Shown: one piece after another, positions 229 to 56,045 of the stretch
Layout of the letters: every line of letters begins with the position of its first letter
How positions within the stretch are numbered: the stretch's first letter is position 1
NCBI RefSeq assembly: GCF_022919575.1
Contig: NZ_CP095071.1
Span: 1,798,001 to 1,862,000 of the forward strand
Reading direction: 5' to 3'
Length of the DNA stretch: 64,000 nt
Source: Gracilibacillus salinarum
GTDB lineage: Bacteria > Bacillota > Bacilli > Bacillales > Amphibacillaceae
Notes under the pieces: model-generated
Database searches by the model: none
What the model was told of the DNA's origin: nothing
Seen by the model: the letters and a program-made list of their open reading frames with translations, nothing else
Program-made: the position numbers and the translations under genes

Positions 229-515
229 CTCCACTTTTAGTTCCTTTCCCACTAAACGATACAAATCTTGAGCGACTGCTCCCCACTTTTGGCTCCTTTC
301 CCGCTATACGAGACAAATCTTTGGCGACTGCTCCCCACTTTTGGTTCCTTTCTCGCTAAACGAGACAAATCTTGAGCGAGCACTCTCCACTTTTGGCTCC
401 TTTCCCGCTAAACGATACAAATCTTTAGTGACTACTTCCCACTTTTGGTTCCTTTCTTGCTAAACGATACAAATCTTTGGCGACCACTCTACACTTTTGG
501 CTCCTTTCCTTATAC
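229..515. repeat. 52-bp tandem repeat array A (about 5.5 copies)
   Basis: The motif CCACTTTTGG recurs with its first base at 231, 283, 335, 387, 439 and (degenerate) 491, so the period is exactly 52 bp. Each unit continues CTCCTTTCCCGCTAAACGA and then ACAAATCTT. Because 52 is not a multiple of three, any ORF through it is an artefact. It lies between the remnant at the window edge and the 3' end of the symporter gene. Array members differ by substitutions and almost never by length. Confidence 0.9.
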
Positions 516-572
516 TTGATGCATTCAAAACTTCAATACGTCTTCATTGCTTAAATTTTTCCAACCTAGAAA

Positions 573-602
573 AAACACGTCTATTCGAAAATAGACGTGT
601 TT
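573..602 (-). terminator. intrinsic terminator of the symporter gene
   Basis: A perfect 13-bp stem (AACACGTCTATT and its complement, extended by one pair) closes a four-base loop. On the minus strand it is followed by a run of six T. It starts five bases past the stop codon of the symporter gene, as expected for its Rho-independent terminator. Confidence 0.85.
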
Positions 603-607
603 CCACA

Positions 608-1843
608 CTAAGCAGTTTCTTCTGTTTTATCTTTCTCATTTCGTTTATCGCCTTCTGAAATAATATACGCACAAGCTGCATCACCGGTAATGTTGAGCGA
701 TGTACGTAACATGTCTAATAATCTATCAACACCGATAATTAATGCAATACCATCTACAGGTAAGCCGACTTGCTTCAGCACCATTGCCAGCATAATAAGT
801 CCCACACCAGGAACACCGGCTGTACCGATACTTGCCATGGTTGCGGTTAAGACAACCATTAACATTTGGCTAATGCCAAGTGGCTCTGCATATACTTGTG
901 CGATAAATACGGTAGCTACCGCCTGCATAATCGCCGTACCATCCATATTGATCGTCGCACCTAAAGGCTGAACAAAGCTGCTGATTTCTTTTTTCACCCC
1001 AAGTCTTTCCTGTGCCATTTTCATCGAGACTGGCAGTGTTGCACTTGAACTCGATGTACTGAAGGCAACAGACATCGCTGGGAAGAACAGTTTGTAAAAC
1101 TTTATCGGACTAGCTTTTCCTAATCCTTTAATCGCTAAACTGTACGTAACAGCACCATGGATAAGCAATGCGAGGATGACAGCAACCATATACATTAACA
1201 TCGACCCTAATGCATCTAATCCGGCATCTCCAATTGCAGACGCAATCAACGCAAACGCACCATAAGGGGCTGTTTTCATTATCGCATTCACCAGGAAGAT
1301 TAAGATTTCATTTGCTTGTTCAAATAATCGAAGGATGCCGCTTGTTTTGTCACTAAGTTTCGCTAAGGCAATCCCAATAAATACGGCAAAAGCAATAATT
1401 TGTAACATGTTCCCCGTTGACATTGCTTCGATCGGGTTCTCCGGAATAATATTGATAAAGGTATCCATAATAGGCGGAGCAGCTTCTTCTTCATAGCTGG
1501 CATTTCCCGTATCAAATGTGCCTGCTTTACCTGGTTCGAGAATTAAGCCAACTCCAAGCCCAATGAATAAGGCTACAGCGGTCGTACATAAATAAAATCC
1601 AATCGTTCGAATCCCGATTTTCCCAAGCTTTGCAGGATCACCAAGACCGGCCGTTCCCAGTACAATGGATACGAAAACGATCGGTACAACAATCATCATA
1701 ATTAGATTTAAGAATATTTGTCCAACTGGATTTAATACATACGTATCAACACCAGTAAAAATGTTACTCGGTAACAACGATAAACCAATACCTGTAATTA
1801 CACCTAGTACCAGTGCAATCAGTATCTTTTTCGTTAAACTCAT
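608..1843 (-). CDS. dicarboxylate/amino acid:cation symporter (DAACS family)
   Basis: This 411-residue polytopic protein is a secondary transporter for glutamate/aspartate or C4-dicarboxylates, coupled to Na+ or H+. It carries the family's serine-rich re-entrant loop STSSSSATLP near residue 260, the TINMDGTA motif near 300, the second re-entrant loop SIGTAGVPGVG near 340 and the conserved NITGDAACAYI near the C-terminus. The length is normal for GltP/GltT/DctP. The start follows GAAAGGACGAATGAT, an acceptable ribosome site. It is monocistronic with its own terminator. The exact substrate cannot be read from sequence. Confidence 0.93.
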   Translation of the reverse strand: MSLTKKILIALVLGVITGIGLSLLPSNIFTGVDTYVLNPVGQIFLNLIMMIVVPIVFVSIVLGTAGLGDPAKLGKIGIRTIGFYLCTTAVALFIGLGVGLILEPGKAGTFDTGNASYEEEAAPPIMDTFINIIPENPIEAMSTGNMLQIIAFAVFIGIALAKLSDKTSGILRLFEQANEILIFLVNAIMKTAPYGAFALIASAIGDAGLDALGSMLMYMVAVILALLIHGAVTYSLAIKGLGKASPIKFYKLFFPAMSVAFSTSSSSATLPVSMKMAQERLGVKKEISSFVQPLGATINMDGTAIMQAVATVFIAQVYAEPLGISQMLMVVLTATMASIGTAGVPGVGLIMLAMVLKQVGLPVDGIALIIGVDRLLDMLRTSLNITGDAACAYIISEGDKRNEKDKTEETA

Positions 1844-2148
1844 ATCATTCGTCCTTTCTCGTTGATTATCTTGTTTATTGCTATTTGCTCGTCATAAATG
1901 TCAGACAGAATCCCTTTTTCGGAACGCTCCCGATTCTTGCCTGCTGCGTTTTTTTTGTGGTTTCTTATAGAAGGGGATCACTTTTTATACTGGATTTATT
2001 ATGTAGCTTCAAACATGGGGATATGCAAAAACAAACGAATCCAACAGCCCACCACTTTATCAATATAAACTCTATTGTATAATAGATTAATAAAGATTTA
2101 AAATATTTTTACAAATATAAAACTATTTACCTACCGCCAATAAGGTGG
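1844..2148. other. intergenic stretch, no gene recognised
   Basis: About 305 AT-rich bases lie between the 5' end of the symporter gene and the 3' end of the next membrane-protein gene. The part next to 1844 must carry the symporter promoter, but no convincing -35/-10 pair was picked out. Short ORFs here have no ribosome site and are not called. Confidence 0.5.
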
Positions 2149-2679
2149 TTATTTTAGTGGTGAAATAAAATAAGTAACAGAAATCACAATGTCAATTAGT
2201 ACAACGATTCCCCATACCTGGAGCGTTCTCCACAGTATCTCTGTTTCACTCGGTTTTCCAATATAAAAAATCATCAACAGCAATAGTACGCCGCCAATCA
2301 GATAGGCTAAGACATGCTGCAAGGAGCCTTTCATGCTGTGTTTTGCATAATCCATTCCGATTCTCCGTATTGGCTTTGGTCCCTCACGTTTCACATAATA
2401 TAAAAAACGTTCATCTGCCCAGCGAATCATCGATTTCCCATAAACGATGGAGATGGCCAGATAAATGGGGGCAATGCTGTGCGCACCGGTTATTTCTGCT
2501 CCACGATAGACGTCAATACTCGTCACAACAAGCAAAACAAGATCGACAATCGGCGTCATCGCCAGTAAAAAGAGACCCGCTTTTTCCTTGTTAAACAGAT
2601 ATCTCGTTACCAATCCCGCGATAATAAAGATCCAAAATCCGATCTCACACGCTACAATCAGCCATGCAACAATGTGCAT
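2149..2679 (-). CDS. integral membrane protein of unknown function
   Basis: The product has 176 residues with about five hydrophobic segments: roughly residues 5-27, 36-56, 68-85, 125-143 and 154-172. A basic stretch with ERFLYYVKREGPKPIRR sits near the middle. It resembles small Bacillus inner-membrane proteins of unknown role, of the YmcC type, but this is from memory and no function is assigned. AAGGTGG lies upstream of the ATG. The neighbouring small membrane-protein gene (2744-3064) has the same orientation. Confidence 0.75.
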   Translation of the reverse strand: MHIVAWLIVACEIGFWIFIIAGLVTRYLFNKEKAGLFLLAMTPIVDLVLLVVTSIDVYRGAEITGAHSIAPIYLAISIVYGKSMIRWADERFLYYVKREGPKPIRRIGMDYAKHSMKGSLQHVLAYLIGGVLLLLMIFYIGKPSETEILWRTLQVWGIVVLIDIVISVTYFISPLK

Positions 2680-2743
2680 ATTTAACCACCTTCATTTCTC
2701 AACATCACTGCTTCACCAGTTCGGGTATGCGTTTTCAAAAAAC

Positions 2744-3064
2744 TTATATACTTTCCTGCTGACTATATATTTCATAACCAATATAACCAAATAAATAGCC
2801 GATTCCCGATCCTAAACTGATAGTAAGCAGCAGTGAATACGGCAAATAAATCCCTGCCAGCACACCAATTGCACAACCAGCCAGCATTCCCATCGGTATC
2901 ATAGTGTCTAATACCACCTGAGCACGTTTAGTTTTTTTCTTCCCCAATTTACCTTGGTCATATTTATGCCGAAGTCTATGGAGGACAAATAACACAATCA
3001 CTGCGACGATGACGAGAGGCGCAATTGCTTGGATAACTTCCACGCTGGAATCGCTCCTTTCCAT
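2744..3064 (-). CDS. small membrane protein, unknown function
   Basis: The product is 106 residues. It has an N-terminal hydrophobic helix (about 13-27), a strongly basic linker (HRLRHKYDQGKLGKKKTKR) and two further glycine-rich hydrophobic segments (about 55-72 and 78-97). The start follows GAAAGGAGCGATTCC, giving a usable site. The family is not recognised. Glycine-rich paired helices are common in small membrane proteins of firmicutes and do not indicate a function. It may be co-transcribed with the 2149-2679 gene. Confidence 0.7.
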   Translation of the reverse strand: MERSDSSVEVIQAIAPLVIVAVIVLFVLHRLRHKYDQGKLGKKKTKRAQVVLDTMIPMGMLAGCAIGVLAGIYLPYSLLLTISLGSGIGYLFGYIGYEIYSQQESI

Positions 3065-3147
3065 TAAGATAATTTCGTTTACATACTTAACTCCTATATA
3101 TTCCTAAGTTTATCATATAATACCCATAAATAGGTGGATTTGAAACA

Positions 3148-4080
3148 TTAATAGTTGTCCACGACGCCTCCTAAGGAAGCTGCCTGAACAAAAGGCTCGT
3201 TGATCATGTCTAAGATTTGCTCCTTCGTTCCATACACAACTACACCTAAGATTTCGGCATCTTCTATATCCTGGTCCTTCAAATGGCTATATGCTTGATG
3301 GTGTTCGCTTGCATAACTGGTTTGCAGTAATTGAAGAAAGTTATTGTAATCATATTCCAAATCAGTATTGGCATAATAAGTGGAATTAATCGAAAAACCT
3401 AGAGCATCATTTTCTCTTATAAATGCCGCAGACCAATCGTACTCATCTGCTTCTTTTCTATATGTTTCTAATTGACTGTCGGTGTATGTGTTGATCCAAA
3501 ACCATGTCATTTCCGGAAGCTGCTCAACAGGTAAGTCACGTTGCTTGTATGGTTTATCAAAAGAAAGAGCAACTTCATAGATATTATCCCCTGACATACT
3601 TTCAATAAGCCCTTCATCGTTATTATATTTTTCGTACGTGACATCGGGGTGGAAAAACATCATATTTCTCCAGCCATTATCTTTATAGGTAAACTGCCAT
3701 TCTTCACCAGTTACTCCGATGCTTCCACCTGCACCTCTTGAAAGCAAAACAGATGGAATCAGCCCAAAGGAATACTGATCCTGTTCCATCACAACTGCTT
3801 TTCTTTTCATATCCTTGGAAACCTTATAATTGCTTGATCCTCCAAGAATGCCTGTAGAATCAACAGTTTCACTGATATAGCCATTAGGTGTAGTGAGTCT
3901 GATATATGCATCCCGCTCTTTATATGCCTTTTGACTAAAATAGGCTGAAATAGCAAAATTGCCTATACTCAGCACAACAAACACCAGGATAGACACGGCA
4001 ACAATCGTAATGATTGTCTTCCTTTTCCCTTTTCTTATCGCTCTTTTTACCTTCTTTTCATCAAAAATATCATCGCTCAT
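3148..4080 (-). CDS. anti-sigma factor, sigma-factor-regulator family
   Basis: This 310-residue membrane-anchored protein is predicted to hold the neighbouring ECF sigma factor inactive. The N-terminal cytoplasmic part (about 1-22) is very basic. One transmembrane helix follows (about 23-48), then a large extracytoplasmic domain typical of the SigmaReg_N/SigmaReg_C families. Its ATG lies inside the 3' end of the upstream sigma gene (ATGAGCGATGA overlap), so the two are translationally coupled. The sigma gene is interrupted by an in-frame TGA, so this regulator may have lost its partner. Confidence 0.85.
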   Translation of the reverse strand: MSDDIFDEKKVKRAIRKGKRKTIITIVAVSILVFVVLSIGNFAISAYFSQKAYKERDAYIRLTTPNGYISETVDSTGILGGSSNYKVSKDMKRKAVVMEQDQYSFGLIPSVLLSRGAGGSIGVTGEEWQFTYKDNGWRNMMFFHPDVTYEKYNNDEGLIESMSGDNIYEVALSFDKPYKQRDLPVEQLPEMTWFWINTYTDSQLETYRKEADEYDWSAAFIRENDALGFSINSTYYANTDLEYDYNNFLQLLQTSYASEHHQAYSHLKDQDIEDAEILGVVVYGTKEQILDMINEPFVQAASLGGVVDNY

Positions 4081-4579
4081 GAAGATTCCCCCACTTCTCT
4101 TTGAATGCTTTTCTTGCCCGAAATAAGTATGTCCTGATTGTCTCTTCCTTCATCCCTAATAGTAATCAAATTTCTTTATAACTTAGCTCCAGTTCATATT
4201 TTAATAGCAAAAGCTGTTGATAGATTTCCTGTATCTCCTTTAAGGTTAGAAAGATTTCAGCACTCAATTCGATATGTAATACGCTCGATTCAATATCATC
4301 GTCATTTGCAAAATTATTCCAAAAGCGATCATCATTGATCGACATCACCTGTTCTTTTCCTTTTTTCTTTAACATTCTTTTGAACTCATTCATTGCAATG
4401 GAAAAAATATAGGATAGTGCTTTATCTGAAGCAACGCCGCTGCTGTACGCTATATATTTCATATAACTCTCCTGCACAATATCCTCCGCATCTTCATGAC
4501 TGCATCCGTTCTTTTTCAAATAGTAATAGATCATTTTTGCCTGTTTATTATATATTTGCAACAAAAGCTGTGAATCCAT
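4070..4579 (-). pseudogene. ECF-type RNA polymerase sigma factor with in-frame TGA
   Basis: Translation from 4579 gives sigma region 2 (EDAEDIVQESYMKYIAY near residue 30) and the first part of region 4. It stops at a TGA (4168-4166) after LSYKEI, inside the DNA-recognition helix-turn-helix. The same frame continues for 31 sensible residues (LLLGMKEETIRTYLFRARKA and on) to a TGA at 4072-4070. That stop overlaps the anti-sigma start by 11 bases. The read-through length of about 169 residues is normal for ECF factors. A nonsense mutation or sequence error is likely. The truncated 137-residue form lacks the -35 binding helix. Confidence 0.88.
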
Positions 4580-4748
4580 AACATCTCCCCTCGGATAGAA
4601 TATCGCCTATTATATAGAGTCGGTTTCTTTTGAATAGTTTACAGGAAAACAGAAATAAATTTAAGAAGTTTTAAAAAATACGTCCGCTTCTAATGAGTTA
4701 TATGGGGGGATGACGTAGGTGTGACGGATGATGACTGCTGGGAAGGTC

Positions 4749-5078
4749 ATCTATCGGACAACTCGATACTCCTACTCTTCCCTTTTGGCCGATTGGGGGC
4801 TTCTATCGGACAACTCGACGCTCCTTCTCTTCTTTTTTGGCCGATTGGGGGCTTCTACCGGACAACTCGACGCTCCTATTCTTTCCTTTTGGCCAATTGG
4901 GCACTTCTATCGCACAACTCGACGCTCCTATTCTTCCCTTTTGGCCGATTGGGCACTTCTATTGCACAACTCGACGCTCCTATTCTTCCCTTTTGGCCGA
5001 TTGGGCACTTCTATCGCACAACTCGACGCTCCTATTCTTCCCTTTTGGCCGATTGGGGGATTCTATCGGACATTCACT
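4749..5078. repeat. 52-bp tandem repeat array B (about 6 copies)
   Basis: CTATCGGACAACTCGACGCT begins or nearly begins at 4751, 4803, 4855, 4907, 4959, 5011 and 5063, so every step is exactly 52 bp. The second half of the unit reads CTTCCCTTTTGGCCGATTGG. Units contain TCGGACAA with a later TTGGCCGA, a partial inverted repeat. The array fills the gap between the sigma gene and the DUF4179 gene. Proline- and leucine-rich ORFs read through it in all three frames and are artefacts. Confidence 0.92.
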
Positions 5079-5258
5079 CTTTTCCCACAATTAATGTTGT
5101 CCGGTTGAGCATAATAATACGATCAAATTATTACTCACGCTGAACCTGAGTTAAATTTATTAATCTAAATATGAGAAGAAGTCATCATATGACAGATATT
5201 CCATACAAAATAAATAGAATAGGCATTGGAATCAAACATCCAACACCTACTCCATACA

Positions 5259-6674
5259 TTATTTTAATTCCACTTTAATAGCATCCATTTTAATCGGCTC
5301 TTCATTTGCACTTAATGTTCCAAATGGTACTAAAATGGAATAATCTCTATAATCAAACGTATCTTGATCTTTCCATTCAAAAATGGATTGAAAATGCAGA
5401 CTGTCACCTTCTTGTAACGTTGCTTGATCACTTCGAATCCTGTATTCCAGCATGTTCATCATATCCAATTCTCCCGTTTCATCCCTTTGAACATTGTCAG
5501 ATTTAATCATCATGATAAAGTTGGCAAAGCCTTGAATAATATCTGCTCGAAGCGAACCAGTTTCTACATTCTGTATGTGATAATCCAATATTAACTGTTC
5601 CCCCTCTTGCTGTATGCTATTTACCTTTATCGAATAGTCAAACCTGCTGCTTTCTATGGTAAAAGGAGGCGATTGGTTCATAGAATACACAGTATCTTCT
5701 TCTGATTTTTCTATTTCCGGTTGAATGATTAGATACTTGGCATCGTCACTGATCTTGCTATCAATTAAGTCTTGGTTATCTTCTAGAATAAAAGATTCAC
5801 TTGTCTCTGTTGATACAACATTTGGGTTAAACGGTGATAAGCGATTTCCTTCACTATCCACCACTTTAATGTTTATATAATCCATTTCCCCATCCAAAGG
5901 CATTGTCGTCTGGTAATTTAATATCGTCGTCGCCTTGCCTTTCACAACAGACTCCATTTGAAGTGAGTATCCTGAACCTTCAAGCTCAGTCGTAGCTTCC
6001 GAATAAATCGTTTCTGATGGAATTTTCTCAACCGGCACATCAAACTTCCAACGGCCATTAACACTTGCCATATTCGTAAAAGTTAATGGCAACGTATCTT
6101 TTTCGAGTACATAACCATGATCATTATAAAATTCAATCGAAGCAATGTATCCATCTTCTGTTTCTTTTAAGCTTGACATGGTAGCAGACAACTGATTTTG
6201 ATCTTTTCCGTCAAAAAGATGAAAGCGATAGCCTGCTTCTGGACCTTCCCCTCCAACACGATCCAATGAAAGTTTGTCACCTTTCGCATTAAAGGTAATA
6301 CCAATGACATTGCCATCATAATAAGCACTTGTTATCGTGATATCTACTCCCTTACTCGTCGCTTTCTGATCAAGCTGCGTTACTAAATCACTTTCCAGTA
6401 ACTCCTCACCGATTTGCATGCCAACCTTGTCATAAACAGAGCCTAACAGAGGAATAGAAGACAGGGCATATGAAATAGGTGCAAAAACGAAACCTGCTGC
6501 CAAGAATGCGATTGCCGCAATCGATGCTGCTGCACTTACAAGCTTGACCTTGGATCTTCTTTTCGGTACTTTTTCTTTACGGCCTTTCTCCATGCCTCGC
6601 TCTATTGCCTGAAATATTTCGCTCTTGGGAACTTCTATCTCATCGATTTCTTTATGTAAACGCTCTTTGCCCAT
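5259..6674 (-). CDS. DUF4179-type membrane-anchored anti-sigma factor
   Basis: The product is 471 residues. A cytoplasmic N-terminus (about 1-45, very basic near 30-45) is followed by one transmembrane helix (about 46-68) and then a long extracellular part of beta-rich domains: DUF4179 at about 75-230 and a DUF5643-like domain after it. Proteins of this type pair with ECF sigma factors and act as their membrane-bound negative regulators. Its first 23 bases overlap the end of the upstream sigma gene, which indicates translational coupling. The signal sensed is unknown. Confidence 0.85.
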   Translation of the reverse strand: MGKERLHKEIDEIEVPKSEIFQAIERGMEKGRKEKVPKRRSKVKLVSAAASIAAIAFLAAGFVFAPISYALSSIPLLGSVYDKVGMQIGEELLESDLVTQLDQKATSKGVDITITSAYYDGNVIGITFNAKGDKLSLDRVGGEGPEAGYRFHLFDGKDQNQLSATMSSLKETEDGYIASIEFYNDHGYVLEKDTLPLTFTNMASVNGRWKFDVPVEKIPSETIYSEATTELEGSGYSLQMESVVKGKATTILNYQTTMPLDGEMDYINIKVVDSEGNRLSPFNPNVVSTETSESFILEDNQDLIDSKISDDAKYLIIQPEIEKSEEDTVYSMNQSPPFTIESSRFDYSIKVNSIQQEGEQLILDYHIQNVETGSLRADIIQGFANFIMMIKSDNVQRDETGELDMMNMLEYRIRSDQATLQEGDSLHFQSIFEWKDQDTFDYRDYSILVPFGTLSANEEPIKMDAIKVELK

Positions 6675-7191
6675 GGTAATTCATCCCCCCAATACTTTTT
6701 TTCAATTCCATTTTTGCCCGACGTAAATAGGTTTTAATAGTGTTCGCGGGTTTCCCCATCGTTTCCGCAATCTCATCAATCGTAAAACCATGATAGTAAA
6801 ATAAGATAATGACAGTTTGATAATGTTTACTTAAAGCGGAAATGGCGTTTAACATATCCATCTTCTCTTCTGCGTCCACATAACTATCGTCAGAAATATT
6901 ACGGATAAGTTCCTCATCAAAAACGACTTTCTTTCGTTTGTTTATGACATCATAAGCCGTTCGGATCAGAATCTTTGTCAGCCAGGTATAAAAAAACTGC
7001 GGCTGCTTAACTTGATCAATGGATATAAAAGCCTTGTATATTGTTTCCTGAAGTACATCCAATGCATCCTCTTTGTTTCGGACATAAAGAAATGCAGTTT
7101 TGTAGAGCTTTTCACTCTCTTTTTTGACGAGTGTTTCAAATGCTTCTTCATTCCCGCTTATTGCTTTTTTTATTATAGATAAATCTTTCAA
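6652..7191 (-). CDS. ECF RNA polymerase sigma factor (SigV/SigM-like group)
   Basis: This directs RNA polymerase to envelope-stress-type promoters. Region 2 is visible as ALDVLQETIYKAF and WLTKILIRTAYDVINK, and region 4 as YHGFTIDEIAETMGKPANTI with the recognition helix TYLRRAKMEL. An in-frame ATG at 7209 gives 185 residues. However, AAAGGAGGG sits between it and a TTG at 7191 with a six-base spacing, and a good ECF promoter ends at about 7212, which would put the ATG at or before the transcript start. TTG at 7191 (179 residues) is therefore preferred. Confidence 0.9.
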   Translation of the reverse strand: MKDLSIIKKAISGNEEAFETLVKKESEKLYKTAFLYVRNKEDALDVLQETIYKAFISIDQVKQPQFFYTWLTKILIRTAYDVINKRKKVVFDEELIRNISDDSYVDAEEKMDMLNAISALSKHYQTVIILFYYHGFTIDEIAETMGKPANTIKTYLRRAKMELKKSIGGMNYHGQRAFT

Positions 7192-7211
7192 GTTGTTCCC
7201 TCCTTTCATCT

Positions 7212-7242
7212 GTTAGAGCAACCAGGGGGTGCAAAAGTTTCA
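7212..7242 (-). promoter_or_regulatory. ECF-type autoregulatory promoter
   Basis: On the minus strand TGAAAC (7242-7237) is followed after 17 bases by GCTCTAAC (7219-7212). This matches the TGAAAC/CGTCTAA pattern used by SigW/SigM/SigV-type factors. It lies immediately upstream of the ECF sigma gene, which suggests self-activation, a usual feature of such operons. Confidence 0.65.
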
Positions 7243-7310
7243 AAAAAATGAGCTAGAAGAATTTTTTCTTCTAGCTTGGTTATGTATTGTCAGTTCAACA
7301 TATAATCAAC

Positions 7311-7412
7311 TTTTTTATGGCCACTTTTCGATGTTTTATGGCCACTTCGGCTACTTTAATGGCCACTTTTTGACGTTTTATGGCCACTTTTATTCATTTA
7401 ATGGCCACTTTT
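7311..7412. repeat. 21-bp tandem repeat, TTTATGGCCACTTTT type (5 copies)
   Basis: The palindromic core TGGCCA recurs with GGCCAC at 7319, 7340, 7361, 7382 and 7403, which is exactly 21 bp apart each time. The sequence between cores varies. The array lies between the ECF sigma promoter and the 3' end of the VOC gene. A 74-residue ORF across it has a repeated FYGHF pattern and is only a translation of the repeat. Confidence 0.9.
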
Positions 7413-7455
7413 GCAAAAATACCTATCACAAGAAACTTCTAAGTCCGTTCTAAAA

Positions 7456-7821: not shown

Positions 7822-7828
7822 TCCTTTT

Positions 7829-8677: not shown

Positions 8678-8737
8678 TGTATCCCTCACTGATTATTGTT
8701 ATCTATTGTCTTTAAGTAAGCTGCATACATAAGTAAC

Positions 8738-8830
8738 ATAAGGCCACATTTTATGGCCACTTTTCGATGTTTTATGGCCACTTTTATTCATTTTATGGCC
8801 ACTTTCAGCAGTTTTATGGCCACTTCTACT
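8738..8830. repeat. 21-bp tandem repeat, TTTATGGCCACTTTT type (4-5 copies)
   Basis: GGCCAC occurs at 8755, 8776, 8797 and 8818, exactly 21 bp apart, with a further copy out of phase at 8742. This is the same family as the array at 7311-7412, and one intermotif (TTTTCGATGTTTTATGGCCA) is identical in both. The array lies just before the 3' end of the interrupted yfjL-like gene. Short ORFs with SGHK or MATF repeats are artefacts. Confidence 0.9.
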
Positions 8831-8837
8831 AAAATTA

Positions 8838-11883: not shown

Positions 11884-13521
11884 CTATAAAAAAGACTGGG
11901 CTTTTAATTTTTCAACCTCTACCTCAATTGTTGCTACATCAACCCTTTCGAATAGTGGTTTCACATGTTTTAATTTGGAATCATATCTTTCAATTGGTTT
12001 CCATTGAAATTCCGATATGTTTAAGCTCTCTTTTATTTCACTACTTGAAAATGGAAGAAATGGACTTAATAACTGAGCCATATTTGCAATGATATATACA
12101 CAAGTGGCTAATGTATTATTACATTCTTCAGGAGAATCTTTCACCTGAACCCATGGCTGTTGATGATCAAAATACTTATTGGCATGCCGGATATATTCAA
12201 ATAAAATATCCAATGCTTGTTTGAAGTGCGTTTCTTCGATCAGCTTACCTATCTCAGTATACAAATTCTTAATTTCGTCCTTGATAGACGCATCCACTTT
12301 AGCGTATGGAATTCTTCCATCAAAAGATTTTTCAATAAATTTTAACGTTCTATTGATGAAGTTACCATATGCACCTAATAGTTCGCTGTTATGACTGTAG
12401 ACAAACTCTCTCCACGAAAAATCGGAATCTCTATTCTCAGGAGCGTTTATTGTTAAGAAATAGCGTATGGAATCTGGATGATATTTCTCAAGCAGATCCG
12501 GTACCCATACTGCCCAATTTTTGCTTGTAGACAGCTTCTTCTTTTCAACTGTTAGATACTCATTGGAAACAATATGAGTAGGCAAAGCTTCAAGCTTTAC
12601 CCCTAACAAAATCGATGGCCAAATAATCGAATGAAATGGAATATTATCCTTCCCGTGTATATAATATGAGATTGTATCTTTACTCCAGAAAACGGAATCA
12701 TCTCTTTTATGTTCTTTCGCCCATTTTCTACTGACTGAATAATAGCCTGATACAGCTTCAATCCACACATAAAATTTTTTATCTTCATAACCATGTACTG
12801 GTACCGAAACGCCGATTGGCAAATCACGTGATACAGCACGGTCATGCAATCCTTCTTTCAAATATCTTGCCGTTAATTGGTTTGCATTGTCACGCCACAA
12901 ACCATTACTCCTAGCGTTATCAGCATACTGTTGTAACGGTTCTTGAAATGTACTTAATTTAAAGTAGAAGTGTTCAGTATTTCTTGTAGTTGGAACATCG
13001 CCGCATAGTTTACATTTCTTATCACGAAGGTCTAATGGTTCTAAGATTTTGGAGCAATGATCACACTGATCCCCTCTTGCATCCTTTACACAATTCGGAC
13101 AAAGCCCCTCCACAAATCGATCAGGTAAAAACTGGTCACACGTTGTACAATATGCCTGTTCCACCGCTTTCTGATAAATTTTTTCGTTTTCTACTAATTT
13201 CAAAAAGATTTCCTGAACAGTTTTATGATGATGTGCAGAGTCGGTACGCGTATAACAATCATAGGTGAAACCAAGCTTCTCAAAGCATTCACTAAATTCC
13301 TCATGGTATTTATCAGCAATTTCCCTTGGAGTCACACCTTCCTGCTTTGCTCTGATTGTAATAGGAGTTCCATTACAGTCGCTTCCTGAGACATAAAGGA
13401 CATTATCCCCCTTTGCTCTGTAATATCGTGCTAAAATATCTCCTGATAATAAACTGGCAATATGCCCTAAATGCATGGAACCATTTGCATAGGGCCAAGC
13501 CCCTCCAATGAATACGTTCAT
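11884..13521 (-). CDS. metG: methionyl-tRNA synthetase, short form without C-terminal EMAP domain
   Basis: This class I enzyme charges tRNA-Met using ATP. The product has 545 residues from ATG 13521, which follows AAAGGAGGTAGTGAT; the frame open to 13581 lacks a site. The HIGH motif is HLGH (17-20) and the KMSKS motif is KLSTSKN near 328. Between them is a zinc-knuckle insertion with four Cys pairs (CTTC, CPNC, CDHC, CKLC). B. subtilis MetS is about 660 residues because of a C-terminal tRNA-binding domain, which is absent here. This may be a second MetRS. A methionine T-box controls it. Confidence 0.93.
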
Positions 13522-13543
13522 ATCACTACCTCCTTTTAATCTA

Positions 13544-13593
13544 CAAAAAAAACCTCGCCCTAAGACAAAAACGCTTGTCAAAGGACGAGGTTA
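13544..13593 (-). terminator. T-box regulated terminator
   Basis: This GC-rich hairpin pairs AACCTCGTCCT with AGGGCGAGGTT and is followed by a T run on the minus strand. Its 5' arm is shared with the antiterminator formed by the T-box sequence. It is a conditional terminator, not a gene-end one. Confidence 0.85.
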
Positions 13594-13835
13594 TACTCGT
13601 GTTACCACCTTTTATTTACTAATCACTCACATGATCAGCCTCGATAAGTACGGAACATTACATGCTCTTATACCCTGACATTTATAACGAGTGCCAAATC
13701 TCGTCATAACCTAACTTCAAAAAAGTTCAGCTATGCAGCTCAGAGACCATGTTCAATTAACGAATCCTTGCTTCTTTTCAGCTGCCGAAGCTCTCTGTAT
13801 AAGGATGAACATTAATTTACTCTTCTCTTCCATGC
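13544..13835 (-). promoter_or_regulatory. T-box riboswitch (methionine specifier) upstream of metG
   Basis: The minus strand carries the T-box core AAGGTGGTAACACGAG (about 13612-13597). It overlaps the left arm of a terminator, AACCTCGTCCT paired with AGGGCGAGGTT, which is followed by eight T. Stem I is recognisable from AGAGAGC to CTCTGAGCTGC. The specifier reads GAAC-ATG-GTCTCTG, with ATG at 13750-13748, matching methionine. Uncharged tRNA-Met would stabilise the antiterminator and allow read-through into the synthetase. Confidence 0.9.
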
Positions 13836-13920
13836 CTTTTCCATTTAATATTACCTTATTATTACATTTTCTTTTGGATAAAACAACATCTGATTTTATT
13901 ATTGTACATTTTTATTTTAT

Positions 13921-41744: not shown

Positions 41745-42300
41745 AGTATTTCTATTGGACATTCGCTCTGCTTTTCTTCTCTCTTTTGTCCGGTTGGGAC
41801 CTTCTATCGGACAATCGCTCTGCTTTTCCTCTCTCCTTTGTCCGTTTAAGAGCTTCTATCGGACATTCGCTCTGCTTTTCCTCACTCTTTTGTCCGGTTA
41901 AGAGCTTCTATCGGAGAATCGCTCCGCTTTTCCTCTCTCTTTCGTCCCTTTAAGAGCTTCTATTGGACAATTGCTCCGCTTTTCCTCTCTCCTTTGTCCG
42001 TTTAAGAGCTTCTATCGGACAATTGCTCCTCTTTTCTTCTCTCTTTTGTCCGTTTAAGAGCTTCTAACGGCCATTCGCTCCGCTTTTCTTCTCTCTTTTG
42101 TCCGTTTAAGACCTTCTATCGGACAATCGCTCCGCTTTTCCTCTCTCTTTTGTCCGTTTAAGACCTTCTATCGGACAATCGCTCCGCTTTTCTTCTCTCT
42201 TTTGTCCGTTTGAAAGCTTCTATCGGACAACCGCTCTGCTTTTCCTCTCTCTTTTGTCCGTTTAAGAGCTTCTAATGAACAATTGCTCCTCTTTCGTCCG
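41745..42300. repeat. 52-bp tandem repeat array C (about 11 copies)
   Basis: CTATCGGACAA or a close variant begins at 41752, 41804, 41856, 41908, 41960, 42012, 42064, 42116, 42168, 42220 and 42272, every step exactly 52 bases. The unit continues TCGCTCCGCTTTTCCTCTCT, then TTTTGTCCGTTTAAGAGCTT. Each unit contains the inverted pair CGGACAA...TTGTCCG. It fills the gap between the YesL-like gene and the second sulfatase-fold gene. GAGTCTCACTTTAAT directly after it resembles the end of the structured mobile element. Confidence 0.95.
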
Positions 42301-48465: not shown

Positions 48466-48501
48466 TCGATGTCAACTCCTTCGCGATAAGATTTATTTGC
48501 G

Positions 48502-48541: not shown

Positions 48542-48556
48542 CCTGATCCTGCTACA

Positions 48557-49903: not shown

Positions 49904-49931
49904 GAAACTCTCCTCCTTCATTAATCTTTAT

Positions 49932-49945
49932 TTGAAAGCGTTGTC
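49932..49945. promoter_or_regulatory. putative cre (CcpA) box upstream of the binding-protein gene
   Basis: TGAAAGCGTTGTCA matches TGNAANCGNTNNCA at every fixed position. It lies 29 bases upstream of the start codon, a position where CcpA would repress transcription. This is the best cre match in the window. Confidence 0.65.
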
Positions 49946-49969
49946 ATTTACAGATAAAAAATGATTCCT

Positions 49970-51004
49970 CTAATGAGAAACGTTACGTATCGGCAAATAA
50001 TCATGGATCTGAGGAACCTCGATCACTTTTCCGTTTGCTTGATGTGAGGCAATAGCTGCTTCAATCACTTCCTGTGCAGCTAACGCATCGAATCCAGAAG
50101 CAGACAATTTGATCGGGTGTGTACCTGCTTTTACATCGATTATAAACTGATCAATTCGATTGCGTAACGTAGCATGAAACGTATCGACACCGGTCATAAT
50201 CGAATTTCTCATCGTTGTCATCTCTTGCTGATGATGCGGATAATAACGAAAATGCTCATAAACATTGTCAATTTCAAATCGTCCGCTCGTTCCCGCTACT
50301 TCGCAATATTCGATCGGATGATGTCGTGACATATCGTAGCTTCCCGTCAAATGCCCTACTGCACCTGATTGAAATTCCATGTTAACCGATACCGTCGACC
50401 AGCTCTGGCGCTTAGGTGCTCGCGTCATAAAAGACTGTACCCGCCGGACATCCCCTGCAAAATAGCGCATCACATCGATCGAATGCGGATGCAGCGCTCT
50501 CATATGAAACCATTCCGTCATATCTTTCGGATTCTGTATCGTTAATTTCATATTCAAATACAGAAGAGAGCCTAATTTATCCTCCGCTATCAGCGCTTTT
50601 CCCTTTGCCGCTGCCGGAACAAAACGATGATTCAAGTTGCATCCTAGCCGCACCTTCTTCTCGAGCGCAACCCTTACCATTTCTCGCGCTTCCTCCAAGC
50701 TGTTGGAGATCGGTTTCTCCACTAAGACATCTTTACCAGCCTTCATCGCAGTCATCACAGGTGCATAATGATGACTGCCATTCTCAACACCTGCCGTTGC
50801 CACGCTGACGATATCAACCACTTCTTTTTCCAATAAGTCGTCCAGATTTGTATATGCCCTTGTCTGATAGTTAGTGGCTGCTGCTTGAGCCCGCTCTTCC
50901 ACAAGATCACAGACGGCTACTAGCGCTGTATCCGGATTCTCCAAATATGCCTGACAATGTAGACTGCCAATATTATTCACGCCGACAACCGCTACATTTA
51001 ACAT
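49970..51004 (-). CDS. Gfo/Idh/MocA-family oxidoreductase (paralogue 2)
   Basis: The product is 344 residues from ATG 51004, behind AGAGGGGGCAGATGG. The nucleotide loop is LNVAVVGVNNIGSLHCQAYL (GVNNIG in place of the usual GxGxxG middle Gly), the Lys motif is LVEKPISNSLEEAREM, and the active-site stretch is MRALHPHSIDVMRYFAGDVR. It is closely related to the gene at 44756-45760 through most of its length. The two flank the importer of the same cluster and may act on related substrates or form a mixed oligomer. Confidence 0.9.
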   Translation of the reverse strand: MLNVAVVGVNNIGSLHCQAYLENPDTALVAVCDLVEERAQAAATNYQTRAYTNLDDLLEKEVVDIVSVATAGVENGSHHYAPVMTAMKAGKDVLVEKPISNSLEEAREMVRVALEKKVRLGCNLNHRFVPAAAKGKALIAEDKLGSLLYLNMKLTIQNPKDMTEWFHMRALHPHSIDVMRYFAGDVRRVQSFMTRAPKRQSWSTVSVNMEFQSGAVGHLTGSYDMSRHHPIEYCEVAGTSGRFEIDNVYEHFRYYPHHQQEMTTMRNSIMTGVDTFHATLRNRIDQFIIDVKAGTHPIKLSASGFDALAAQEVIEAAIASHQANGKVIEVPQIHDYLPIRNVSH

Positions 51005-51137
51005 CCATCTGCCCCCTCTGCCTATCATGAGAAATACGTGCGAATGTTCACCCCCTGTGAAAAGGAATTAGGTTAAGTATAGTGGTAGACATCCTAATGA
51101 AAAAACCTATAATTTTAACAAAAAAGAGGGGAAAATT

Positions 51138-52604
51138 TTACTCCCTTCTTGTCTTTTGCTGTAGGTCCTTATATTGCTTCGGTGAATAATTTGTCGCTTT
51201 CTTAAAGACCGAGCGAAAATGTTTCGGGTCCTGATAGCCGACTAAGATCCCTACTTCCACTGTTTTAGTAAACCCATTTTCAAATAGTTCCTTCGCTTTT
51301 TCGATGCGATAATTTGTCAGATAGTCAGAGAAATTCATCGACGTCTGCAGCTTGAATTCTCTGGAAAGATAGCTCAAACTAACATGATGATCATCGGCAA
51401 ACTGCTGAAACGTAATGTTGTCTGCATAATGAGTCTCAATAAATTCCTTCACTTTCGGTATTAATTGTCTAGGCGCCAGTTCTTCATCATCTAATGATTG
51501 CATGATGAAGGCGAGCAACTTCTGTAACCAGCCTCTCAGCTCCTTGATTGTTAACAAACGGTCTAATGCTGCGAAATGACTGTCCATCTGCGGAATCTTA
51601 ATGACTTTACTCGTCGATTGTTCTAATTTAAACCAGATCGCGTAATACATATCTAACAAAAATTGTCTTAATACCTTCTGTGTCGGCTGCAAATAGTGAA
51701 TTTGCTCTGTCAGAATCGATAGCTGTGTGTCAACAGAGGTGTATTCCCCGTTTCTCAATGACTTCTCCAACACACGCACCTCATCCCACAACGAATGGAG
51801 TGTGACTTGACTTGCTTGCGATTGATCGGTGATAAAGGACGATCTGCCAAACCATTTATGCTGATCCATCAGCTGATGCACCTGTTGATAGACATCGCCT
51901 AAGCGCTGATCTTCCCCTTTTTTCACGGTAGCAAGGTGAACCTGCCTGACTTCACTCCACTGTTGAAAGAGTGTTTTCGTGATCACTTCTTTTTTAGTTA
52001 GAAAAAGAATCCGCTGCTTATCCAACGATAGCAGCCACCCTTTCGTTTGCTGGTTGATTTTCTCAAGCTCCTGCATGATGATGTCGTCATCCTCGATGGG
52101 TGCATGCCAATTTCCAAGCACGATGTATGTAACGTATAATGTTTCGTTGACAAACAGCTCTTTATTAACTGTGGACGGGTTTACGATCAGCTGATTGATG
52201 AACCATAATTGTTCATCGGAGGCGTGCTTTTTTCTGTCTGCTATTTTACCAAGCAGACGGCTCATCATATCATTGAGCGTATCTCGTTTTACCGGCTTTA
52301 ATAAATAATACGATACGTTCAGATCAATCGCCTGCTTCGCATAATCAAAGCTATCATGCACTGTTAATAACACGCATTCCGTTACAGGATAAAGCCGCTT
52401 CACGCTTCTGATTAATTCGATACCGTCCATCACCGGCATCGTAATGTCAGTAATCACCAGATCCGGCTCATGCTGGAGCACATGCGCATATGCCTCTTCC
52501 CCATCATCAAAGAAGAACAGCTGATGCTCCTGTTGATAGTTCGCGAGTAATGCTTTTAATTCCTCCAGTGCCCAATACTCATCTTCCACAATCAAAATAT
52601 TCAT
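51138..52604 (-). CDS. YesN-type response regulator with AraC DNA-binding domain (second)
   Basis: The product is 488 residues, longer than the first YesN because of a middle domain (about 130-380) of the type found in large YesN proteins. The receiver holds NILIVEDEYWALEELKALLA, phospho-Asp in LVITDITMPVMDG near residue 55 and Lys in YLLKPVKRD. The AraC domain holds ITFQQFADDHHVSLSYLSRE and VGILVGYQDPKHFRSVFKKA. AAAGGGGGAGACAG precedes the ATG. It is 14 bases after the kinase gene. Confidence 0.92.
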   Translation of the reverse strand: MNILIVEDEYWALEELKALLANYQQEHQLFFFDDGEEAYAHVLQHEPDLVITDITMPVMDGIELIRSVKRLYPVTECVLLTVHDSFDYAKQAIDLNVSYYLLKPVKRDTLNDMMSRLLGKIADRKKHASDEQLWFINQLIVNPSTVNKELFVNETLYVTYIVLGNWHAPIEDDDIIMQELEKINQQTKGWLLSLDKQRILFLTKKEVITKTLFQQWSEVRQVHLATVKKGEDQRLGDVYQQVHQLMDQHKWFGRSSFITDQSQASQVTLHSLWDEVRVLEKSLRNGEYTSVDTQLSILTEQIHYLQPTQKVLRQFLLDMYYAIWFKLEQSTSKVIKIPQMDSHFAALDRLLTIKELRGWLQKLLAFIMQSLDDEELAPRQLIPKVKEFIETHYADNITFQQFADDHHVSLSYLSREFKLQTSMNFSDYLTNYRIEKAKELFENGFTKTVEVGILVGYQDPKHFRSVFKKATNYSPKQYKDLQQKTRRE

Positions 52605-52618
52605 CTGTCTCCCCCTTT

Positions 52619-54418
52619 TTACGTGTACGAGCTCCCTTCTTCAAATGGAATCTTCATCACCATCCGTGTCCCTCGGTCTTTCTCTGACTCCATCTCCAAC
52701 CGGTAGCGATATCCGTACAACAAGCGAATCCGCTGAGCGACATTGATCAATCCAACACTTGTCTCATCACTATCCACCTTATTGTTCCGTATTCGCTCAC
52801 TAAGAGTAGTTAATGTCTCTGCGTCCATTCCCTGCCCATTATCCGTAACTTCGATATGCAAGAATTCTGCCTCTTTATCAATGCGGACCCTGATAATACC
52901 GTTCTTCTTCGTATGCTTCAAACCATGAATCACAGCATTTTCGACAATGGGCTGAACCAGCAGCTTCGGAATCCGTGCATGTTTCGCTTCCTCACTGACC
53001 GAAATCTCCTTATCAAATCTGCCGACAAAGCGATATTGCTGAATCCGCATATAATTGTGGATATGTTCAATTTCTTCTGCCACCATTACTTTTCTGTTAA
53101 GGCCCACCGCCGTATATTTAAACAGATCGGCTAATGACTCCGCCAGAACAGCTACTTCCTCAACCCCTTTGACCCGGCTGGAAGACTTCATGACATTTAG
53201 CGTGTTATAAAGAAAATGCGGATTAATTTGCGATTGCAGAGCGGAAATCTTGGCATTCTTCTCCGCAATGCTTGATTGATAGACTTCCGTAATTAACTTG
53301 TTAATACTGTCGAGCATACTGTTGTACACCCTTATTAAGACATTCAGCTCTTCATTGTTCGTCAGATCCATCCTGTCCGCTAAATCCCCACTCTCCACTC
53401 TTTCCATCTTTTTGCGCAAAAGGATCAGCGGTTTTGACAGACTGTATGATAAAGAATACGAGATAATCGCAATGATCAATATCGTGATCAGACCGCTTCC
53501 CACCATAAAAAGCAGGATTTGGTTTCGTTCCGAAATAATAAAATGATTATCAACCAGCAACAGACTTTGCCATCCGGTAAAAGCCGAGCTGTTACTGGCA
53601 GACAGATAGGATCTGTCATTCCAAGTTAATGTCCAATTTTGCGCTAAATCATTGGTTGCATTGGGAAGATTTATATGCAGCGTGTCTCCAATTGCTTCCC
53701 TTTCCTGATCATAAATGACCTGATTCTCGTCTGTTAAGACAAATACGTGCAAGTATTCTTCCAATTCTTCGAGCTTATCCAACTCTAATAACTTATCAAA
53801 TACATTTACATTAATATCGATCTTCAGCGAGCCAATTTTATTTCTTCTCGGTATGCCGTAGATATGTCGTACGAAGGAAACCACTTGTTTCTCTTCTTTT
53901 GAAATTGTTACTTGCCTGGTCGGCAAAAGCAAAAACGCATCCTTTTTCAGCCCATCTAATTGCGCCATCCATTGCGGATCAGCTTCCCGATATTGCAGCT
54001 CCATCCCGCTCCCTTCCTGATAGGTAAAAGCTGTCTTATCAGTCGTATAAATCGTCACCCCCTCAATATCTTCATTCGGATAAATTTGATTAAAAATCTT
54101 CGGATACAGATCTTTTCGATTATCGATATCGTTGGTGACCTCCTCTGTATCGTAATGTTCCAGCATGTCCTGGACATAAGGGTCAGTAAAAATAGCTAAC
54201 GATACCCGGTCGATATCTTCAAAATATAAGTCGATGGTTTTGCTGAATTGCGTAGACAGGATATTGGAAAGGGAATGCGTATTTTTCTTCATATTATCCA
54301 CATTAAATAGAAAAATGGCGGTTCCGATGATGATAATCACAATGATGAACGCGCTGGCGAAGGCAAGAAACATTTTTGTTTTGAAGGTGAACGATTGGAT
54401 TCGGATTGGGAATTTCAT
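52619..54418 (-). CDS. YesM-type sensor histidine kinase (second)
   Basis: The product is 599 residues from ATG 54418 behind TTGGGGGATCAA. Two transmembrane helices (about 15-38 and 295-315) bracket a Cache-like extracellular sensor. HAMP follows (about 320-370), then His_kinase with SALQSQINPHFLYNTLNVMK and HATPase_c with VENAVIHGLKHTKK, DNGQGMDAETL and GLINVAQRIR. It pairs with the adjacent YesN and should respond to the sugar imported by the neighbouring transporter. Confidence 0.93.
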   Translation of the reverse strand: MKFPIRIQSFTFKTKMFLAFASAFIIVIIIIGTAIFLFNVDNMKKNTHSLSNILSTQFSKTIDLYFEDIDRVSLAIFTDPYVQDMLEHYDTEEVTNDIDNRKDLYPKIFNQIYPNEDIEGVTIYTTDKTAFTYQEGSGMELQYREADPQWMAQLDGLKKDAFLLLPTRQVTISKEEKQVVSFVRHIYGIPRRNKIGSLKIDINVNVFDKLLELDKLEELEEYLHVFVLTDENQVIYDQEREAIGDTLHINLPNATNDLAQNWTLTWNDRSYLSASNSSAFTGWQSLLLVDNHFIISERNQILLFMVGSGLITILIIAIISYSLSYSLSKPLILLRKKMERVESGDLADRMDLTNNEELNVLIRVYNSMLDSINKLITEVYQSSIAEKNAKISALQSQINPHFLYNTLNVMKSSSRVKGVEEVAVLAESLADLFKYTAVGLNRKVMVAEEIEHIHNYMRIQQYRFVGRFDKEISVSEEAKHARIPKLLVQPIVENAVIHGLKHTKKNGIIRVRIDKEAEFLHIEVTDNGQGMDAETLTTLSERIRNNKVDSDETSVGLINVAQRIRLLYGYRYRLEMESEKDRGTRMVMKIPFEEGSSYT

Positions 54419-54485
54419 TTGATCCCCCAAGTTAAGATTTAGTCTGTCAACACGCGCAATAAGTCCCCCTCCCTAGAGATTATTT

Positions 54486-54500
54486 TTAAGCGCTTACAAA
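54486..54500. promoter_or_regulatory. putative cre (CcpA) box upstream of the second YesM gene
   Basis: TTGTAAGCGCTTAAAA on the minus strand has a symmetric TAAGCGCTTA core and fits the cre pattern except at the last C. It lies about 70 bases upstream of the kinase start. Confidence 0.5.
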
Positions 54501-54654
54501 AATAATAAAACGATTTGTTAAATCAATCAAACAATTGCTTTACTATGTTGCAACAAACCGTTTCATTTTTTTCAAAAAAACAGGAATACTAATAGAGGGA
54601 CACACAGCTCCAAAGCGTCTCTTTTTCCCATCAGGAACTGACGTGGTACAATAA

Positions 54655-54795
54655 TGTGAGACTTTGATCAGTGGGGGTTTTTACACCCATTGATCATTAG
54701 CGAAACTTATCAGGGTGTTAGCGTCTGTTTACTCCCACTTAGCTTCTTTGTGAACTCGATGCTTAAAGTGGGAGTCGTACAGACGGTTAATAAAT
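54655..54795 (-). mobile_element. structured TTTAT-flanked element, copy 3
   Basis: The minus strand begins TTTATTAACCGTCTGTACGA and ends CTGATCAAAGTCTCACATTA plus T. The inner stem is CGTCTGT with ACAGACG, where copies 1 and 2 have CGTCCGT with ACGGACG, a compensatory change. The conserved segment CTGATAAGTTTCGCTA is present. It lies in the divergent gap between the kinase and SDR genes. The rest of the gap 54431-54868 contains the phrase CAGGAACTGACGTGG shared with the block at 24820. Confidence 0.85.
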
Positions 54796-54868
54796 ATGAT
54801 TCTAACAGGTATGGAGTTTATTCCTTAAGGTTTCAGATATAAGTATGAATAGAAGAAGGAGTGCACGT

Positions 54869-55615
54869 ATGCCAAATCTAAACAATCAAGTCATTCTTGT
54901 CACCGGTGCTAATCGCGGACAGGGAAAGGCTATTGCGCAGCACCTTGCCAGCTTAGGAGCTATGGTAGTGGTTGGTGCTCGAAATTATGATGCAGCGAAC
55001 GAAGTAGCAAAGCTAATAGGAGAAGATCATGCTTTCCCGGTTCAGTTGGATGTGACCAACGAAGCAGACTGGAACGCAGCAGTTGAGAAGATTATCCATA
55101 CATTCGATCGGCTGGATGCATTAGTCAATAATGCCGGAGCTCTCAAACGCAAAACCTTCAGAGAGACAACGGTCGATGATTATCAACAGTTGATTAATGT
55201 GAACCAGCTTGGTGTGTTCATGGGCATGCAAGCTGTTATTCCACAAATGGAAAAGCAGCAAAAAGGCTCAATCATTAACAACGTATCGGTTTCTGCATTT
55301 GCTCCGATCAGCCATTCCTCAGCTTATGCTGCAACAAAATCATCAGTCGTTGCAATGTCCAAAGCCGCAGCTATTGAACTTGGTCCAACGGGAATTCGCG
55401 TCAACATGGTCCATCCAGGTGGTATTAAAACCGACATGGTCAGCCAAGATGAAAGTGTTCCCGAGTATTACAATACCGTTCCACTGCGACGTATCGGACA
55501 ACCAGTTGAAATTGCTAAAGTAGTAGCCTTCCTCGCCTCCGATGAGAGCTCTTATTGCACAGGCTCTGAGATTGTCGTGGATGGCGGAATGACGCTTGGG
55601 ACAGCGGATGAGTAG
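54869..55615 (+). CDS. short-chain dehydrogenase/reductase
   Basis: The product is 248 residues from ATG 54869, behind AGAAGGAGTGCACGT; the frame open from 54845 lacks a site. The cofactor loop is [15 protein letters not shown] (T-G-x3-G-x-G), followed by LVNNAG. The catalytic Ser is in [15 protein letters not shown], with Tyr and Lys in [10 protein letters not shown]. The ending [20 protein letters not shown] is typical of FabG-like and sugar-alcohol SDRs. The substrate cannot be told. It is monocistronic. Confidence 0.92.
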
Positions 55616-55814
55616 CAAGTCTGCTTAATAGAGGTTATGAATGGGGCACGAGGGTTTTCCTTGTGTCTTGTTTTTTTGACTTGTGGATTGAGGGGATCTC
55701 TTGGGATGGGGAATGATTATCTTATTTATGGCATTGTTTTGTGCTACATGGGTTCAAAGCTGCTTAGTGATGGTATCTATTCAGTAGCAATTGCGATTTT
55801 CAATTCTTTTGTTT

Positions 55815-56045
55815 TTCATAGCCCGCTTTGATCGAATGACACTCGCTTTCGTTCATTTCCACACTTTTACAGCTCGCTTTGGTCGAATGACACTCGCTTT
55901 CGTTCATTTCTCCACTTTTCGCAGCTCGCTTTGGTCGAATGACACTCGCTTTCGTTCATTTCTCCACTTTTTACAGCTCGCTTTGATCGAATGACACTCG
56001 CTTTCGTTCATTCCTCCACTTTTCGCAGCCCGCTTTGATCGAATG
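55815..56045. repeat. 52-bp tandem repeat array D (about 4.5 copies)
   Basis: GCCCGCTTTG or GCTCGCTTTG begins at 55821, 55872, 55924, 55976 and 56028, spaced 51, 52, 52 and 52. The unit continues GTCGAATGACACTCGCTTTC, then GTTCATTTCTCCACTTTTCG. It contains the inverted pair AATGA...TCATT. It lies between the convergent SDR and HTH genes. Apart from CCACTTTT shared with array A, it is unrelated to arrays B and C. Confidence 0.92.

Follow-up and report, generated by a model that had tools for sequence, protein, structure and literature searches.

Bacterial intergenic repeats are often taken as passive mobile debris. Among the described systems, MIRU-VNTR loci are tandem arrays, dispersed between genes, whose units measure about 53-77 bp; they form one family, and we know of no lock to replication for them. 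The boxB unit of BOX elements is about 45 bp long. KOPS, SRS, Chi and AIMS each consist of one short motif, found for the most part within genes, whose orientation follows replication, with KOPS and AIMS rising towards the terminus. Here we report on intergenic tandem arrays of 52-bp units in a 64,000-nucleotide stretch of the Gracilibacillus salinarum chromosome ("the window", which below means this whole stretch), and on their families in the rest of that genome and in related ones. These arrays resemble MIRU-VNTR in their dispersed intergenic tandem layout and differ from it in having several families, whereas with the polar motifs they share an orientation that follows replication, while being intergenic and, in this genome, depleted near the terminus. 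The lock of their orientation to replication is their most unusual property and is new here.

By analogy of layout, the closest known system is BOX. According to its published description (PMC3049150), BOX is intergenic and modular, the number of its tandem middle units varies, it is commoner between convergent genes, stem-loops are predicted for it, and its size differs between strains; the arrays resemble it in these respects, a modular build and stem-loops being putative in their case. The same source places only 60.8% of BOX elements on the leading strand, mirroring the genes, whereas the arrays are oriented at 75 of 76 places independently of the neighbouring genes and comprise several arm families at one period. 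REP, BIME and REPIN elements, which go with RAYT transposases, are likewise short intergenic palindromes (PMC3733652 and PMC6006769) that occur in clusters and in several families per genome, and REP elements lie, like the arrays, mostly between unidirectional and convergent genes. Unlike REP and BIME, the arrays are built head to tail with long constant spacers, are locked to replication, and occur in a sister species (G011) in which Y1 transposase had no match. A literature search found no description of these arrays, most subscription papers lying outside its reach.

The genome of the window (G000) is a single contig of 4.80 Mb, of which the window covers bases 1798001-1862000, and its origin and terminus, as judged from GC skew, lie near 2.95 Mb and 0.55 Mb, respectively. 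A preliminary description, made from the letters of the window, had named four arrays with a common period of 52 bp. Tandem Repeats Finder (TRF) finds all four, and in the autocorrelation of the window the lag of 52 and its multiples stand far above all others, followed by 42 and 21. The four arrays are:

Array A, 223..509, strand -: 5.5 units of 52 bp (TRF), with the leading-strand unit AGATTTGTATCGTTTAgcgAGAAAGGaaCCAAAAGTGGg.AGC...
Array B, 4750..5072, strand -: 6.2 units of 52 bp, belonging to family C (TRF and relation to array C)
Array C, 41750..42294, strand -: 10.5 units of 52 bp (TRF, spacer-length pattern and profile)
Array D, 55813..56046, strand -: 4.5 units of 52 bp (TRF, steps and geometry)

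Each family was searched for with a single array as bait, so that all counts of places are minimum values. Of 50 candidates from the first search with family A, 40 received a score; merging of places reduced family A from 50 to 41, i.e. array A and 40 further places in the genome, and family E from 27 to 19. For family C the orientation count retains 13 of 28 listed matches (E up to 3.7e-7), and of the 15 dropped (E 0.002 or worse), some of which overlap counted arrays and most of which are at chance level, 13 obey the orientation rule when read by eye and two short ones (17 and 21 bp) do not. Counted in this way, the 75 places out of 76 in families A, C, D and E that share one orientation relative to replication comprise 40/41 of family A, 19/19 of E, 13/13 of C and 3/3 of D; family F, which consists of three 51-bp arrays in this genome, was kept out of the count, and two of its three arrays agree. 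Flanking genes were taken as open reading frames (ORFs) of at least 110 amino acids, smaller ORFs being able to alter some context classes, and among the 64 places where both could be called every array is co-oriented with replication: 30/30 between two leading-strand genes, 24/24 between convergent genes, 4/4 between divergent genes and 6/6 between two lagging-strand genes. The sole disagreeing array (at 1405831) is one of the 12 places left unclassed by flanking genes. Since the convergent and lagging-lagging places all follow replication, neighbouring genes do not set the direction of the arrays, and orientation as a by-product of gene direction can be rejected.

A similar lock was found elsewhere in the same bacterial family. 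In a genome of another genus (G024), one 52-bp array seen in a 100-kb sample led, when used as bait, to 10 places, all with period 52. The skew of this genome is positive from 0 to 1.0 Mb and negative from 1.5 to 2.0 Mb, and the arrays are on the plus strand in six cases, none beyond 1.08 Mb, and on the minus strand in the four cases from 1.90 Mb onwards, so that 10 of 10 are co-oriented; one weak match on the opposite strand (E 0.001) falls inside one of the 10 arrays. In the sister species, where the skew brackets the origin only within 1.12-1.325 Mb, 19 of 21 places are co-oriented if the origin lies at 1.12-1.197 Mb and 18 if it lies at 1.21 Mb.

G000 also contains a repeat of about 600 bp that is dispersed between genes in both orientations and has GC-rich hairpins nested in one another (CCCGCGGGAGTCT...CCGCGTCCTGCGGG); 34 copies of at least 300 bp were found in 862 kb, for example at genome positions 2521700-2522310 (L094:1700-2310) and 3495623-3496237 (L098:15623-16237); it had no Rfam match. 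As a control, this element is leading-oriented in 20 of the 34 copies, which rules out orientation as a general repeat property of this genome. In G024, contig C1 carries large arrays of a 20-bp unit (AAATACACACAAGTT-N5) with up to 35 copies, at about 16 places and in both orientations (e.g. L285:13733-14428), and these agree with replication at 9 of 16 places (merged by hand).

The lock could be due to function, for instance through an agent that moves from the origin towards the terminus, or to a mutational process by way of the lagging-strand template. The instability of hairpin repeats is known to depend on orientation, and one may therefore consider that there is orientation-dependent expansion only, random dyads being amplified wherever a given strand is the lagging-strand template; the purine fraction, which averages 0.65 on the leading strand, would be in line with this. 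However, isolated solo units are already co-oriented (5 of 5 with E < 0.02 in the samples of G000 and G011, the only reversed candidate being weak, E 0.14), and the fixed period would be left unexplained; we consider this scenario highly improbable.

As to location, 54 of the 64 classed places in G000 lie between two leading-strand genes or between convergent genes, the arrays sitting mostly 3' of genes, and divergent gaps are under-used (4 of 64 places versus 61 of 281 background gaps of at least 150 bp). Such a distribution would be in line with transcription of the arrays as RNA hairpins that lie in 3' untranslated regions and have a role in transcript stability, termination or processing, and arrays of families C and E indeed fold better than their shuffles, at about z -2 or lower. 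Nevertheless, this signal is present on both strands (and in E is stronger in the lagging sense), family A, the largest, shows none (mean z -0.2 in 30 arrays), the one array of family D that was examined shows none, and Rfam had no match in the arrays of the window or in six array-bearing or control stretches. Nor would RNA hairpins account for an orientation that tracks replication rather than the neighbouring gene, or need a constant loop length in unconserved sequence. Because folding is absent in A and occurs on both strands in C and E, a double-stranded site is favoured over an RNA, and a loop that is free in sequence and fixed in length suits two bound half-sites better than an RNA loop. 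We regard an RNA function as improbable, given the missing Rfam matches and the lack of a folding signal in family A.

A bias in chromosomal position, for which a test had been proposed, exists in part. The quarter of G000 nearest the terminus holds 4 of 76 places where 19 are expected (P ~1e-5), and the corresponding quarter of the sister species holds none of 21; within the G000 sample, 1 of 21 arrays lies near the terminus, whereas the dispersed element shows no such depletion (8 of 34 copies, in 200 of the 862 kb). In G024, on the other hand, 3 of 10 places lie beyond 0.75 of the arm, which rules out depletion near the terminus as a general law.

The units of families C, D and E have a common architecture. 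In leading-strand sense each usually consists of a pair of inverted arms of 8 bases, separated by 25 bases, and of 11 further bases before the next unit (8-25-8-11), although the arms themselves differ by family: ATCGGACA/TGTCCGAT in C, TTCGATCA/TGAACGAA in D and TTCAGGCG/CGCATGAA in E. Within the window, array B has the arms ATCGGCCA / TGTCCGAT with 25 bp between them, array C a conserved CGGACAAAA followed by about 20 free bases and then TGTCCGATAGAAG.gctCAA, and array D the arms TTCGATCA / TGAACGAA in the 8-25-8-11 geometry. Among the best dyads of the array consensuses, the arm distance of 25 bases was found in 16/21 for C, 15/19 for E and 3/4 for D, and over all families the best 8-nucleotide arms match at 7-8 of 8 positions in 39 of 87 consensuses, compared with about 10.5 expected from mononucleotide shuffles. 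The partial inverted repeat that had been seen in every unit is thus real in C, D and E and weak in A, where 36 of 41 consensuses have an 8-22-8-14 geometry with imperfect arms and where the period is still 52. In the G024 family the arms (e.g. CAAACGTT/AACGTTTG) are spaced differently again from those of the G000 families, and the unit is once more 52 bp at all 10 places. Since arm spacing in A and in G024 differs and the unit stays at 52, the period is more constant than the arm-to-arm distance. In the arrays inspected unit by unit, units run head to tail with no alternating or paired inversion, and the spacers are alike inside one array and different between arrays, i.e. they lack the varied spacers of a CRISPR.

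Arrays B and C were correctly recognised as related: they form one family with conserved arms (68% identity, E 1.9e-17). The further view that A and D are unlike the rest, and the arrays as a whole unrelated, holds for A to the extent that an ungapped comparison of 55 consensus-unit pairs detected no resemblance between it and any other family, and does not simply hold for D, which has the dyad geometry of C and whose units adjoin C units at G011 2132870-2133200, a site orthologous to one in G000. Most G024 consensuses likewise had no detectable similarity to other families in the consensus-unit comparison, and the G024 family bears little or no likeness to those of G000.

The constancy of unit length was examined by measuring steps from anchor to anchor between neighbouring units in the G000 arrays with at least three copies, setting aside six units split by a second internal anchor match (8+44 or 6+46) and nine longer steps across missed anchors, one of them 103. 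Exactly 52 bp was found in 245 of 254 single-unit steps (A 160/167, E 48/48, C 35/36, D 2/3), and in array D one of the three steps is 51. The near-constant step claimed for the window extends to the genome. In family C the anchors CGGaCAAAa and TGTCCGAtAGAAg.gctCAA are conserved and the intervening stretch of approximately 20 bases is almost devoid of information; nevertheless this spacer has one length in 17 of 18 array consensuses under an anchor pattern that allows 25-30 bases, and a genome-wide pattern allowing 14-28 free bases gave 17 matches at seven loci, all with exactly 23, while its reversed control gave no match genome-wide. As a yardstick for length we used the dispersed 600-bp repeat with its 34 copies. 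Net length difference is zero in 69% of 485 array pairs from different loci versus 6% of 550 dispersed-repeat pairs, and across mismatch classes net length had changed in 7-23% of 52-bp windows of the arrays and in 35-79% of those of the control, which bears out the claim that units diverge by substitution and not by length. The strong contrast sits in net length and not in raw gap openings, and because the array pairs are non-independent, with units homogenised inside arrays, the length constraint is clear but unquantified.

To see how far the period extends, TRF was applied to samples of several genomes (score of at least 80, smallest period per repeat group), coding and non-coding repeats being taken together, so that periods of 8, 12, 18, 24, 27 and above 100 may be coding repeats. 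Forty nearly evenly spaced stretches of G000 (798 kb, 17% of the genome) gave 27 repeat groups, of which 14 fall at 52, three at 51, five at 20-21, and the other five at 24, 27, 102 and 119; the predicted genome-wide peak at 52 is therefore present. At least one group at 51-53 was found in 5 of 10 other sampled genomes, namely 5 of 7 groups in the sister species, 3 of 7 in G007 (all at 51), 1 of 3 in G012 (at 51, the other two at 42), one in G016 (at 52, beside one at 42) and one in G024 (at 52, beside three at 20 and one at 41), whereas the samples of G002, G021, G027, G042 and G045 had none. In G007 and G012 the 51-bp arrays have a period divisible by three and may lie in open frames. One of those in G007 (L264:8267-8586), possibly coding, belongs to a further arm family, TGACGCCC / GGTCGTCA, with arms 26 bases apart by eye.

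Because the period has a sharp genome-wide peak, net length is kept while sequence drifts, and the period recurs in another genus, selection on spacing, as originally proposed, is supported. Besides scattered others, the period classes that recur across samples are 20-21/40-42 and 51-53, and only these classes suggest helical phasing; the idea of five helical turns has no more than this indirect support. A test of DNA curvature was flat with a wedge model (mean z -0.3) and weakly positive under an A-tract model (mean z about 1) and did not support bending; intrinsic curvature was dropped as an explanation.

Our tentative preference, held with somewhat less than even confidence, is that the arrays are composed of protein-binding half-sites with selected spacing and a polarity set by replication. 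On this view, double-stranded DNA sites would be grouped into intergenic arrays along the chromosome arms, and every unit of 52 bp would offer two inverted half-sites that, owing to head-to-tail stacking, would recur every 51-53 bp. One or more DNA-binding proteins, probably different for each arm sequence, would fill an array cooperatively, and it would therefore be spacing and not sequence that is selected: net changes in length would be purged, spacers would drift, and copy number would be free to vary by recombination or slippage. Being polar, the arrays would most likely act on, or be shaped by, a traveller from origin to terminus such as the replisome or SMC, which we propose because they are polar, lie mostly 3' of genes and are rarely found between divergent ones.

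Several observations weigh against this reading. No one sequence-specific protein can read all of the different arms, and the single protein originally imagined for all arrays is not supported, since the arms differ by family; the arms of family A are imperfect, mostly with 6 of 8 matches; the half-site spacings of 33/19, 30/22 and 29/23 are not whole helical turns; and the flat wedge-model curvature counts here as well. Gap openings per mismatch are just two-fold lower in arrays than in the control (0.064 versus 0.122), and in family F, with its 1.9-2.4 copies of 51 bp, the array at 4569338-4569436 is reversed. Several same-strand pairs among C, D and E are similar at a single-test P of 0.01-0.04, and one C-G024 consensus pair beat 300 of 300 shuffles, uncorrected for the number of tests. 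Family A was found in 2 of 61 genomes and family C, within the genus, in 4 of 17 including G000, and since they are absent or rare in most sampled relatives the arrays are not essential. When named genomes were scanned for an exact pattern, 35 stretches from scattered taxa each contained a single match, and we take these matches as chance. Finally, copy number differs strongly between the sister species G000 and G011. At orthologous sites, those sampled in both species by chance, the copies in G000 and G011 are 10.5/2.4 (array C of the window), 7.4/3.1, 6.4/2.5 and 3.6/4.6. Length polymorphism between strains had been named in advance as an argument for ordinary slippage repeats; here it is found between sister species, with the period unchanged.

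The arrays may instead be passive repeats like BOX or MIRU, in which a small dyad of about 41-52 bp, dispersed through the genome, was amplified in tandem at some sites, length being set by a common ancestor and unequal exchange and orientation by insertion or amplification on the single-stranded lagging-strand template. Solo units exist, such as the single C unit at G000 2775837-2775877, whose orthologous site in G011 has 6.2 copies, and one site can bear different families in the two species (C versus D at G000 2003443, A versus C at 4277743). In family A the array is often closed by a hairpin of a different kind, AGAAGACAAA-N19/21-TTTTGTCT, with a conserved tail (e.g. G000 3618109-3618146), which recalls boxA-(boxB)n-boxC; this hairpin has eight exact copies genome-wide, one of which, at 1422297, was unmatched by the family A search. 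The flanks of family A are similar downstream in 24 of 31 arrays and partly similar upstream in 15 of 31. The weak similarities among C, D, E and one G024 consensus allow for inheritance of one length, and some families may, judging from these sequences, have a distant common origin. On the other hand, A and most G024 consensuses are dissimilar to the others and yet have an equal period, and unconserved spacers keep their length. At a threshold of E 0.001 for Y1 transposase (PF01797), there was no match in G011 and one in G000, both of which carry arrays, while RVT_1 reverse transcriptase (PF00078) had none in the array-carrying G011; movement driven by RAYT or another Y1/HUH transposase and an origin by reverse transcription are thus both weakened, although relics are conceivable. 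BOX, moreover, is only 60.8% on the leading strand (PMC3049150). Passive repeats are a strong rival and a real possibility, which we rate as short of probable.

Returning to half-sites with selected spacing and replication polarity, a bolder version, which we think unlikely, is that the arrays make up an architectural code, polar in nature, for the chromosome arms, in which any of several dyad sequences, placed every five helical turns and facing the fork, would act as a directional pause, loading site or barrier for the replisome or SMC, and in which two genera would follow a common rule using different sequences. Such a code, equally unlikely in our view, would be a bacterial analogue of oriented CTCF sites.

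In either form the arrays differ from the common picture of intergenic repeats, in that length is kept, sequence is not, one length is held by unlike sequences in different genera, and direction is tied to the fork and not to genes, and they offer a case, open to test, in which non-coding DNA of a bacterial chromosome would be selected for its spacing and polarity. Dozens of arrays, several arm types, solo units and orthologous copy-number variants make natural material for finding the protein or machine concerned, and they hint at a direction-sensitive role in organising or copying the chromosome.

The window contains two further tandem arrays, both with a 21-bp unit:

21-bp array, 7313..7412, strand -: 4.8 copies (TRF), leading-strand sense AAAAGTGGCCATAAAA
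Second 21-bp array, 8749..8825, strand -: 3.7 copies of the same unit (TRF)

Together with three arrays of this kind in the samples, they form a set of TTTTATGGCCACTTTT arrays in which five of five have one orientation relative to replication. Elsewhere in the window, a T-box leader (Rfam RF00230, 110.5 bits) lies at 13578-13841 on the minus strand, upstream of the ORF at 11884-13581.

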